Assembly: GCA_903911145.1 (NCBI GenBank)
Contig: CAIWCD010000007.1
Location: 62,001-126,000, forward strand
Source: an uncultured delta proteobacterium
GTDB taxonomy: Bacteria; Myxococcota; Myxococcia; Myxococcales; 40CM-4-68-19
DNA length: 64,000 bases
Direction of reading: 5' to 3'
This document shows, piece by piece, positions 2,485 to 64,000 of the stretch; position 1 is the first letter of the stretch; each line of letters opens with the position of its first letter. Made by a program: the position numbers and the translations under genes. The notes under the pieces are model-generated. The model did no database searches, had not been told where the DNA came from, and saw only the letters and a program-made list of their open reading frames with translations.

Positions 2485-2617
2485 GCTGCGGAGCATCGCT
2501 GGTCGCGGCCGTGCTCAAACATGCATGCGCGGCCGACGTTAAGAGCGCGCTCCGATCGAAGTTGGGAGGGGCCGCTCCTGAACTGCGCGCGGCCGCGACC
2601 AGCGGCTGCTCCACAGC
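2485..2617. repeat. Element E: palindromic intergenic repeat, family 2
   Basis: This non-coding element fills the gap between the convergent zinc-ribbon gene and serC, beginning 6 bp after the former's stop. Arms at 2485-2511 and 2590-2617 are reverse complements except for one bulged base and two mismatches. The 78-bp interior starts with TGCTCAAACATGCAT and ends with CCTGAACTGCGCG. These inner boundaries recur, inverted, in element F (55727-55853), while the arms do not. It could act as a bidirectional transcript end, but no U-tract follows. Confidence 0.75.
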
Positions 2618-55726: not shown

Positions 55727-55853
55727 GCCGCGGGGCCGTGGTGATGCTGGCCGCGCGCAGTTCAGGGGCGGCCGCAAGATCCCCCGCAGCGAGCACGGAC
55801 GTCAGCCGCGGATGCATGTTTGAGCACGGCCAGCGTTACCACGGCCCCGCGGC
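55727..55853. repeat. Element F: palindromic intergenic repeat, family 2
   Basis: 27-bp arms at 55727-55753 and 55827-55853 are reverse complements except for two positions, both of which would be G-U pairs in a plus-strand transcript. The interior is the inverted counterpart of element E: the boundary sequences TGCTCAAACATGCAT and CCTGAACTGCGCG recur exactly, while the arms differ from E's. It fills most of the amidase-rph gap, starting 41 bp after the amidase stop. Confidence 0.75.
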
Positions 55854-58095: not shown

Positions 58096-59373
58096 GTGGT
58101 CCAGTCGCGCGTCGAAGATCTCAGCCCTGTCGTCAAGCGTCTCTCTGTCGAGCTCGCGCCCGAGCAGGTCAAGCGGGAGTTCGAGAGCGCGGTGACGCAG
58201 CTCTCGCGGACCGTGCGGCTCAAGGGCTATCGCGCCGGACACGCGCCGCGACGACTCGTCGAGCGCCACTTCGCGGACGACCTCAAGCGCGACGTCGCGC
58301 AGAAGCTCGTGCATCTCTCGATCAACGAGGCGCTCAACGAGCACAAGCTCGATCCCGTCGCGCCGCCCCGCGTGGAGAACGGCGAGGTCCTGAACGGTGA
58401 AGTGTTCAAGTACGTCGCCACTGTCGAAGTGCGTCCGGTGGTGGACCCGAAGGAGTACGAGGGTCTCGCAGCTCCCCGCTCCGACGCTGCGCTGAGCGCC
58501 GCCGAGGTCGATGAGCGCCTCGAGGAGATGCGCACGGAGCAGTCGGTGTTCACCGAGGTCGAAGGCCGCGACGTCGTCGAGGCGGGCGACTACGCGACTG
58601 TGGATTACGTCGGCACGATGGACGGCGCGCCCCTGCGTGGCGCTTCGCGCGAGGGTGTGCTCCTCGAGATGGTTCCGGGATCGCTGCTCGAGAACAAGGC
58701 CGAGGCGCTCGTCGGTGCGCGCATCGGCGAGACGCGCGAGCTGGGCGTTACGTTCCCGAACGACTACGCAGTCGAAGATCTGCGCGGCAAGGAGGCCTCG
58801 TTCATGGCCACCGTCAAGGGCATGAAGCGGCGCAAGACGCCTGAGCTCGACGACGCGTTTGCGAAGGATCTCGGCATGGAGTCGCTCGCGAGCCTGCGCA
58901 CGCAGGTCGAGAAGGATCTCGGCGAGCGGCACAAGGAGAAGCTCGAGTCGGCGCAGCGCGAGGCGCTCCTGAATGCGCTGCTCGCGAAGAATCCGATCGA
59001 GGCGCCGCCCGCGCTGGTTGAGCGCAACGTCGACGCGATGCTGCGCGGAATGCTCGAGGGCTTCGAGCGCCGCGGCCTCGACGTCTCGCAACTCGGCGTC
59101 AATCTCGATCGCCTGCGCGATGACCTGCGCGAGCGCGCCCAGACGGAAGTGAAGGCGTATCTCGTGCTCGACGCGATCGGCGACAAGGAGAAGATCGAAG
59201 TCACCGACGAGGATCTCGAGAAGCAGTTCGCGAAGATGGCGGGCGAGATGAACCAGACGCCGGACAAGGTGAAGCTGGCCTTCAAGCGCGCCGATGCGCT
59301 CGCGTCGCTCAAGAGCCGCCTCAAGCAGGACAAGGCGTACCAGTTCATTCTCGCGAAGGCGTCGTTGAGCTAG
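58096..59373 (+). CDS. tig: Trigger factor
   Basis: A 425-residue ribosome-bound chaperone. The ribosome-binding signature is present as GYRAGHAPRRLVERHF, in place of the usual GFRxGKxP, so the Lys is His here. A PPIase domain follows (VVEAGDYATVDYVGTMDGAP) and the helical C-terminal arms (KTPELDDAFAKDLGMESLAS). GTG start at 58096 with GGAGGT upstream. It heads the tig-clpP-clpX-lon cluster; a 797-bp spacer with two repeat elements separates it from clpP. Confidence 0.95.
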   Translation: MVQSRVEDLSPVVKRLSVELAPEQVKREFESAVTQLSRTVRLKGYRAGHAPRRLVERHFADDLKRDVAQKLVHLSINEALNEHKLDPVAPPRVENGEVLNGEVFKYVATVEVRPVVDPKEYEGLAAPRSDAALSAAEVDERLEEMRTEQSVFTEVEGRDVVEAGDYATVDYVGTMDGAPLRGASREGVLLEMVPGSLLENKAEALVGARIGETRELGVTFPNDYAVEDLRGKEASFMATVKGMKRRKTPELDDAFAKDLGMESLASLRTQVEKDLGERHKEKLESAQREALLNALLAKNPIEAPPALVERNVDAMLRGMLEGFERRGLDVSQLGVNLDRLRDDLRERAQTEVKAYLVLDAIGDKEKIEVTDEDLEKQFAKMAGEMNQTPDKVKLAFKRADALASLKSRLKQDKAYQFILAKASLS

Positions 59374-59381
59374 GCCGGTCG

Positions 59382-59627
59382 GCGCGCGCAAGCGGCGGGG
59401 AACTCGGCGGCGAACACGCGCCTGTGCGCTCTCTGCGCGATGCGCGGCGGTCGGTCGTGGAGTGTGCGGAGTTCGAGACGCCCCTTCGGGGATGCGGTCT
59501 CCGCTCACGAGCGCGCCTTTTGGTCCCGGACCTTGGCGCTGGGCTTATCGGACGCGATTCACGACTGAGCGTCGTGATGGTCGGAGCGAAATGTTCGCCG
59601 TCCGAGCTCCCCGCCGCTTGAGCGCGC
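59382..59627 (+). repeat. Element A: long inverted-repeat element, family 1
   Basis: A 246-bp non-coding element starting 9 bp after the tig stop. Arms at 59382-59416 and 59592-59627 are reverse complements with two mismatches and one indel. Inside the left arm lies ACACGCGCCTGT, inside the right arm CGGAGCGAAATGT, and in the middle a block (59507-59542) that matches element C at 35 of 36 positions. The 136 bp from here to element B contain no gene I can support. Confidence 0.85.
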
Positions 59628-59763
59628 CTCTGCAGATGAGACGCATCGACGACGGGCGCGATGCGGGTGCGCCGGTTCTGCGCCAAGAAGAATCAAAGAC
59701 AAGAGAACATCACGCTGCTTTTCTTTGCTTGTCCCCTCGATCGACACGACCTGCATTTCGCCA

Positions 59764-60004
59764 GGCGCGCACGGCGGTGGGGAGCGGCCGGCCAACATTT
59801 CGCTCCGGAAAGCCCGCCGCGCAGTCGGGAATCGTGCAGCGCGAACCCAAGCGCCGGCTCCGGGAGCCAAGGCGCGCTCGTCAGCGCTGCAGGAATTTTC
59901 CGCGACGGATCGGCCGCGCGCTGACTCCACGACCGACAGTCCTGCGACACGCCCGAGGGCCACAGGCGCGTGTTGGCCGGCCGCTCCCCACCGCCGTGCG
60001 CGCC
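59764..60004 (-). repeat. Element B: long inverted-repeat element, family 1, inverted
   Basis: 241 bp, opposite orientation to A. Perfect 34-bp arms at 59764-59797 and 59971-60004. Read on the minus strand it has the same order: ACACGCGCCTGT, central TCCCGGA flanked by complementary bases, then CGGAGCGAAATGT. The arm sequence differs from A, C and D at many sites. Confidence 0.88.
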
Positions 60005-60108
60005 GAGATGGAATCAAGAACTGGCGATCCCCGCACGCATGTTGGCCGGCCGCTCCCCACCGCCGTGCGCGCCGAGACGAAATCAGCAACTGGCGAACCG
60101 CGCACTCT
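59971..60108 (+). repeat. Two tandem 69-bp direct repeats before clpP
   Basis: The right arm of element B plus 35 bp (59971-60039) is repeated as 60040-60108. The 34-bp arm part is identical; the remainder differs at about eight positions. The second copy ends 62 bp before the clpP start codon. Only two units exist, so it is not a CRISPR array. Confidence 0.88.
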
Positions 60109-60170
60109 CGGTTAGAGTTCAGGAAACCCGTCCAACAGCCGATAAGACTCAGCAGCGGAGTGCATTCAAA

Positions 60171-60791
60171 ATGAGCTTCTTGATCCCGATCGTCGTCGAG
60201 CAGACCCACCGCGGCGAGCGCAGCTACGACATTTATTCGCGCCTGCTGAAGGACCGCATCATCCTGCTCGGCAGCGAGGTCACCGACGATTCGGCCAACG
60301 CGATCATCGCGCAGATGCTCTTTCTCGAGAGCGACGATCCCGACAAGGACATCAACCTCTACATCAACAGCCCGGGCGGTTCGGTCACGGCCGGCATGGC
60401 GATCTACGACACCATGCAGTACGTGAAGCCCGCGGTCTCGACGATCTGCATCGGCCAGGCCGCGTCGATGGGCGCGCTGCTGCTCGCGGCGGGCGCGAAG
60501 GGCAAGCGCTTCTCGCTGCCGCACTCGCGCATCATGATCCACCAGCCGTCCGGAGGGTTCGGCGGGCAGGCCTCGGACATCGAGCTGCACGCCAAGGAGA
60601 TCCTGCGGCTCAAGCACATCCTCAACGAGATCATGTCCAAGCACACCGGGCAGCCGGTTGAGCAGGTTCACAAGGACACCGATCGCGACAACTTCATGAG
60701 CGCGGCCGACGCGAAGGCCTATGGGCTTATCGATGAAGTCATGACGCACGGGCATGCACGTCCGGGCGCTGCACCGACTCCGGCGAAGTAG
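60171..60791 (+). CDS. clpP: ATP-dependent Clp protease proteolytic subunit
   Basis: A 206-residue serine peptidase forming the ClpXP chamber. Catalytic Ser in [11 protein letters not shown], His in [13 protein letters not shown], Asp in [13 protein letters not shown]. The start [20 protein letters not shown] at 60171, with GCGGAG upstream, is typical; the long N-terminal open frame before it is repeat sequence. clpX follows 13 bp after its stop. Confidence 0.97.
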
Positions 60792-60804
60792 ACAGGGGCG
60801 TACT

Positions 60805-62049
<1,245 letters not shown>

Positions 62050-62064
62050 TCGAAATGCGCGTAT

Positions 62065-62308
62065 GCGCCCGAGGCGGCGGGAGGCGGGCGGCGAACACGC
62101 ACCTGTCTGTCTCGGGGCGCGGCGAAGAGGCTCAAGCGTAGAGTGCGCGGAGTGGGGAGGGCTCGAGCGGGATTCGAGCCTCCGCGCACGAGCGCGCCTG
62201 TTGGTCCCGGACCTTGGCGCTGGCGAAACCAGAGGCGCGGCATAAGCGAAACCGGAGCGTTCTATCGGGGCGAAATGTTCGCCGCCCGCCTCCCGCCGCC
62301 TCGGGCGC
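62065..62308 (+). repeat. Element C: long inverted-repeat element, family 1
   Basis: 244 bp, starting 15 bp after the clpX stop. Perfect 33-bp arms at 62065-62097 and 62276-62308. Interior ACACGCACCTGT at the left boundary, GGGGCGAAATGT at the right, and a central block (62188-62223) almost identical to that in A. Same orientation as A. Confidence 0.88.
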
Positions 62309-62337
62309 TTCCTGCAACAAGAGAAGATTAGATGCGC

Positions 62338-62357
62338 TCTCGCGAGATTTCGCGAGA
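62338..62357. other. Perfect hairpin between elements C and D
   Basis: TCTCGCGA-GATT-TCGCGAGA: an 8-bp stem with a 4-nt loop, in the 96 bp between elements C and D. There is no U-run. Nothing else is recognisable in this interval. Confidence 0.45.
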
Positions 62358-62404
62358 CGATGGCGCGCTCGTTTCTTCGGCTCTTGACCGGTCATTTCCC
62401 GCGA

Positions 62405-62652
62405 GGCGCTTGAGGCGAGGCGGGGAGCGGCGGGCGACATTTCGCTCCGATATCCCGCTCCGGTTTCGCCTGGCACGCGCAGAGGGTTTCGATAGCGCCC
62501 GACTCCGGGAGCAAAAGGCGCGACCCGCATGCGGAGCATTGCATCTCGCGTTGCATCCACGTCTCCGCATGCTCCACGCCTGAGTGTCTTCGCCGCTCCC
62601 CGAGACATACAGGTGCGTGTCGCCCGCCGCTCCCCGCCTCGCCTCAAGCGCC
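62405..62652 (-). repeat. Element D: long inverted-repeat element, family 1, inverted
   Basis: 248 bp, opposite orientation to C. Perfect 35-bp arms at 62405-62439 and 62618-62652. On the minus strand the order is again ACACGCACCTGT, central TCCCGGA, then CGGAGCGAAATGT. Its interior is closest to that of C over both flanks (for example GCGAAACCGGAGCG in both). It ends 91 bp before the lon start. Confidence 0.88.
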
Positions 62653-62743
62653 GCTCCATCACTCTCTTACTGACAGACCGCGATCGAGGCATTACGCTCC
62701 GCGCCCGCCCGCGCCTCACGCGCTCGGGCGTTGGAGGCAACCC

Positions 62744-64000
<1,257 letters not shown>

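Follow-up and report, generated by a model that had tools for sequence, protein, structure and literature searches.

A repeated hairpin arm ahead of clpP belongs to a dispersed hairpin element and is probably not a clpP control switch

The window, i.e. the whole stretch of 64,000 nucleotides that was analysed, carries tig, clpP, clpX and lon as a run of genes in one direction. Open reading frames and homologues in relatives delimit tig, which encodes trigger factor (58096–59373, plus strand; putative start codon, stop codon TAG at 59371–59373), clpP (60171–60791, plus strand) and clpX (60805–62049, plus strand; GTG at 60805 as the assumed start). Two hairpin modules of one family, here called family I, lie between tig and clpP. 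Element A (59381–59628, plus strand, sense), recognised by its inverted repeat and a match to the covariance model R1 (see below), begins 7 nt past the tig stop and its arms (59381–59407 and 59602–59628) are paired at 25 of 27 positions. Element B (59764–60004, core on the minus strand) is convergent with A and has perfect 34-nt arms, an R1 match and a fold z-score of -8.85. Viewed on the plus strand, the left arm of B (59764–59797) is the 3' arm of the minus-strand module, and the inner right arm (59971–60004), identified by inverted-repeat comparison, is its 5' arm. A second convergent family-I pair is found at 62050–62743, between clpX and lon: element C (62065–62308, plus strand; perfect 33-nt arms) begins 15 nt past the clpX stop and faces element D (62405–62652, minus strand; perfect 35-nt arms), and both match R1. 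The clpX–lon spacer is about 694 nt here; in the two relatives that could be measured, the distance to the lon match is 581 nt and 1247 nt, so that C and D are candidate insertions only.

The right arm of B is present twice. As the first-pass annotation had noticed, the 34 bp at 59971–60004 recur exactly at 60040–60073 (minus strand; 34/34 identical), the far copy ending 98 nt ahead of the clpP ATG at 60171, and the accompanying 35-bp tail is duplicated in diverged form. Repeat comparison gives two adjacent 69-bp units of arm plus flank, 59967–60035 and 60036–60104, which agree at 62 of 69 positions. Because the core of B is oriented on the minus strand, the duplicated piece consists of the 5' arm of B and its upstream flank. 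All seven differences between the units fall within the 35 positions outside the arm (P = 0.006 under random placement, arm conservation thus being judged on 7 differences); the extra arm is changed at 0 of 34 positions versus 7 of 35 in the flank. B is the sole copy among 28 scored with a further copy of its own arm (at least 80% identical, within up to 700 nt). The suggestion that this is a recent duplication holds as far as a local tandem duplication is concerned but not for its age, since the tail has diverged at 7 of 35 positions and the event can hardly be very recent, barring rapid change of the tail.

Relatives generally have little sequence between the two genes. Measured from the tig stop to where the clpP match starts, the spacer is 797 nt here and 21–60 nt in 27 of 28 relatives (distinct genomes with tig and clpP on one contig, duplicates merged), and a long leader of the A/B type is accordingly not conserved ahead of clpP in these genomes. 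Of 60 genomes, 57 have a tig match; the comparison drew on 30 tig loci, 29 of them outside the own genome, together with loci of named relatives. Judged by tig, the nearest of these named relatives are MAGs carrying the label Myxococcales or Deltaproteobacteria. The one exception (G015) has a spacer of 1269 nt that seems, by eye, to carry other genes (toxin-antitoxin-like and acetyltransferase-like), and the tig–clpP spacer may therefore accept insertions more than once. The comparison yielded no empty site; the relatives are distant, and the tig match in the one same-genus genome is partial and lies at a contig end. The likely history is insertion of REPIN/MITE-like repeats in the short tig–clpP spacer, followed by a local tandem duplication: A and B would have arrived as a convergent pair, and a 69-bp stretch comprising the 5' arm of B and its outer flank would afterwards have been duplicated in tandem. 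As an account of the repeated B arm, insertion plus duplication is well supported; it presupposes that family I is, or was, mobile and that insertion came before duplication, both of which we infer.

Family I is abundant in its own genome, a draft of 53 contigs that is about 99% complete. Searches of this genome with B and C recovered further copies on other contigs, and R1, a covariance model that was derived from 24 copies and covers the 3' part of the core, identifies 32 copies (E ≤ 1.2e-8; next match E 0.38). In the relatives set, none of the 59 further genomes gave an R1 match at E 0.001. With laxer settings in 11 same-family genomes, the best match (26.7 bits, E 6e-4) occurred in a single genome (G006) and is marginal; own copies score far higher, at 44–121 bits, and it was provisionally treated as chance. 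In a search of 195 genomes of the phylum the own genome alone was positive, this search being weak because its filters recovered just 18 of the 32 own copies. Exact matching of two patterns gave no homologue in viral contigs. The full unit of about 245 nt comprises two arms of about 34 nt (P1) and helices P2–P5, which surround a junction; GCGAAATGT, where P5 meets P1, hardly varies, and the arms share a consensus across copies, about GGCGC..GCGGGGAGCGG..AACA.

Sixteen of the 32 copies make up eight pairs with under 1 kb between the partners; every one of these is convergent, and no tandem or divergent pair occurs at that distance. According to a simple gene finder, 30 of 32 copies overlap called genes by at most 40 nt or not at all, and in 16 of 32 the start lies no more than 31 nt downstream of a same-strand stop codon; the latter could reflect a function at 3' ends and to that extent speaks against the insertion reading. 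Family-I copies adjoin many unrelated genes, and inspection of their flanks by eye revealed no clear target-site duplication. At C24:160668–161025, the tails of two truncated modules adjoin each other directly, as if a deletion had occurred between a convergent pair. Rfam 15 returned only tRNAs in the window at gathering score; at E 10, the interval 59371–62750 gave one match (E 2), which lies inside clpP. At a permissive threshold, nine hairpin loci gave one match (E 0.89), far below gathering.

ERIC- and Correia-type MITEs form intergenic, structured and repeated families. Like MITEs, family I is a short multicopy element bounded by terminal inverted repeats. The stem-loop repeat families of bacteria are also intergenic, structured and repeated, as far as the accessible part of their description goes (PMC2267715). 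Going by description, family I is set apart from these and from the MITEs by its long arms, which match within a copy and diverge between copies. REPINs are portrayed, in the portion of the source available, as extragenic inverted doublets with many copies and predicted hairpins (PMC3116915). They share with family I the extragenic location, the high copy number and the inverted arrangement (32 copies and eight convergent pairs in family I), as well as compensatory hairpin changes, which in the portion of that source available are located within the REPIN spacer (PMC3116915). The same portion describes REPIN ends as conserved and the spacer as less so, whereas in family I the arms vary, the internal motifs are conserved and the units measure about 245 nt (PMC3116915). 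That text also ties REPINs to a Y1 transposase (PMC3116915), in contrast with the own genome, where Y1_Tnp (PF01797) had 0 matches while 5 of 14 control genomes were positive; the search for mobilising enzymes, which covered Y1 and RT families, identified none, and this counts against the insertion reading.

Palindromic repeats tagged with GTAG or CGTC, as characterised in the available part of their source, have stems of 5–13 bp, a terminal tag and frequent GT pairs (PMC3733652). Dimers, sub-families that differ in their stem residues yet keep them complementary and, for some families, confinement to one species are likenesses to family I, as far as that part extends; arms of about 34 bp and the scarcity of GU (5 of 895 aligned positions) are differences (PMC3733652). 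GTAG or its complement occurs within 12 nt of the arm foot in just 6 of 28 family-I copies, at no fixed position, and CGTC or its complement in 10 of 28. Identity with REP/RAYT elements was rejected, as no Y1 transposase was found in the 53-contig draft and the GTAG tag test failed.

The arms of family I match within a copy while their sequence changes from copy to copy, which is unusual. Twenty-eight copies were scored, three of the 32 having no detectable arms and one other copy being left out, and their arms show 869 Watson-Crick pairs, 5 GU, 21 mismatches and 9 gap columns (97% Watson-Crick), a figure favoured by the selection and delimitation of copies through their inverted repeat and including several shortened arms. 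Between copies, arm divergence averages 22.7% and is uncorrelated with that of the core (24 copies, 276 pairs; r 0.016), although a trend could be masked by saturation and generous gapping, and in the three closest copy pairs it is slightly lower (0.19). Covariation is strong: among 24 copies, both sides have changed in 39 of 57 pairs and 94.9% of cells are paired, values of which neither is reached in any of 500 shuffles, although the structure is at an advantage here, having been derived from these very sequences. When the partner is slid by 1–3 columns, pairing falls to 34–54% and both-side changes to 12–20 pairs. Covariation in stems is usually read as showing that RNA structure is under selection. 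No published description of the matched-but-diverged pattern was found by title or abstract, which is no proof that it is unpublished.

A second family of hairpins behaves in the same way, and the two are connected by a 14-nt motif, GACCGRTCAANAGC, found downstream of many family-I modules. This motif has 38 sites (no more than one mismatch) in the own genome versus 2 for a reversed control; ten matches are exact, all of them near a hairpin element. Four of the exact matches are away from family I, each downstream of another matched hairpin; the arms are perfect in three of these hairpins and paired at 26/27 in the fourth. Considering all 24 matches away from family I, nine have an upstream hairpin, always with a loop of at least 42 nt, and an empty short-loop hairpin was seen upstream of none. 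The motif is not significant in the interval between A and B on either strand (745 and 1459 of 2000 shuffles scored as high). The duplicated tail next to B was also considered as a diverged version of it and rejected, an equal or higher score being reached in 373 of 2000 shuffles for tail 1 and in 1649 of 2000 for tail 2.

Family-II loops carry GCCGCTCCTGAACTGCGCG, which has 33 matches (no more than one mismatch) in the own genome, one in the 59 others and two in the window. The two window copies are a hairpin at 2497–2604 (plus strand) with inner arms of 15 nt and a 78-nt loop, lying 17 nt past a TAG at 2477–2479, and a hairpin at 55727–55853 (minus strand) with 27-nt arms (25/27 paired) and a 73-nt loop. 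Thirty of the 33 copies were examined, 28 of which entered the GU count (one lacks arms and one is too short). Between copies, identity is 93.7% at the first loop end and 98.2% at the second (27 loops, with the bait sequence overlapping the second end), compared with 43.7% at the 11 variable arm positions. Complementarity of the inner 16 bp is 96.0% within a copy versus 57.9% across arms of different copies, so that arm matching despite variation between copies is stronger in family II than in family I. Nearly fixed loops combined with long stems that are matched in a copy-specific way offer a natural test of replication keeping inverted repeats matched. With one family-II copy, Rfam gave four matches (E 0.93–4.6), all far below gathering. 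A third type of hairpin, with the same tail motif downstream, was noted at three loci (L145, C13:45314; L147, C18:157115; L172, C48:234210); it has CCGATCC.. arms of 13–14 nt and a loop of 52–53 nt which, by eye, contains a smaller palindrome.

How the arms stay matched can be explained in several ways, none of which we hold with confidence. The explanation to which we lean, tentatively and at somewhat below even chances, is that the arms are kept matched at the DNA level, by template switching during replication or by gene conversion. Such homogenisation would explain why the redundant third arm of B is unchanged while its flank has diverged. The non-Watson-Crick positions of the arms also point this way, as they are mostly true mismatches whereas core helices are richer in GU: arms of families I and II together have 10 GU to 34 mismatches and core helices 29 GU to 21 mismatches (Fisher p 0.0007, with core counts tallied by hand), or 16 GU to 16 mismatches for P3 and P4 alone (p 0.016 versus arms). 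This contrast is modest: of the 29 GU cells, 10 come from a single core column, the alignment method differed between arms and core, and the cells are not independent. Template switching has been proposed to maintain hairpins in RNA genes such as those for rRNA, in the accessible portion of the source (PMC8794818). Under the model as set out there, stems should be perfect and their two sides should change in concert, which is the likeness to family-I arms; that portion deals with RNA genes and not with dispersed repeats, and its extension to family I is ours (PMC8794818). If homogenisation operates, arm sequence would be renewed without regard to the conserved core, and the three identical arms of B would be a direct trace of it. 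In a broader form, which we regard as speculative and rather unlikely, several mobile hairpin families would share GACCGRTCAANAGC and have their stems rewritten as matched pairs at the DNA level, perhaps at each copying event.

Alternatively, family I may be a selected RNA element, its copies being transcribed and their stems maintained by compensatory selection, for instance as a 3'-end stabiliser, processing site or terminator. The strong covariation extends to the core helices and is not confined to the arms, GCGAAATGT is conserved at the P5/P1 junction, half of the copies start just past a stop codon and the core helices tolerate GU, all of which suit such an element. The lower share of GU in the arms argues against it, if only modestly, as do convergent pairs lying between co-directional genes, which leave one partner antisense. 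We consider this reading possible, with the odds clearly against it; compensatory selection on a DNA hairpin remains as a further variant of selection.

It is improbable that the arms are target DNA, the core having inserted into the loop of a pre-existing hairpin and each copy hence having its own matched arms. Arm divergence that does not track core divergence, and the location just past stop codons, would be expected from such targets, but the arms have a consensus common to copies, and the nine hairpins upstream of GACCGRTCAANAGC all have loops of at least 42 nt, with no empty short-loop hairpin among them.

The first-pass annotation had further proposed that the left arm of B might alternate between the near and the far right arm and thereby switch the structure of the clpP leader. 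The pairing it invoked is real: the left arm is a perfect reverse complement of either right arm, over 35/35 positions with the outer and 34/34 with the inner one. Constrained folding of 59740–60170 yields both long hairpins, at -221.1 (inner) and -222.0 kcal/mol (outer) on the plus strand and at -246.4 and -248.2 kcal/mol on the minus strand; as these energies are about equal, both hairpins are possible and neither is clearly favoured. This near-equality and the undecayed redundant arm would be compatible with control of clpP expression. However, 27 of 28 relatives have no long spacer, the same elements stand beside many unrelated genes, the core of B is antisense to clpP, and a scan of 59300–60250 detected no sigma-70-type promoter or intrinsic-terminator pattern, such patterns being weak evidence in GC-rich organisms. 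A leader switch is thus very improbable, and the duplicated arm is part of a dispersed hairpin element. Relatives should be checked before hairpins near a gene are called its leader.

Copies of an msd-like retroelement have reportedly been found in Nannocystis exedens, and myxobacterial msr-msd regions resemble family I in arm length and total size. That family I consists of such copies is nevertheless the least probable of the readings, and a retron msr-msd was rejected, because although the own genome has three RVT_1 matches, the loci of all three RT genes lack a family-I module and Rfam gave, tRNAs apart, 0 matches at gathering score and none that is relevant at E 10. Two of the three RT-domain genes (L077–L079, on contigs C6, C23 and C51), L078 and L079, resemble each other by eye, as do the genes around them, and the L079 locus contains 20-nt inverted repeats of another sequence with gaps of 102–163 nt.
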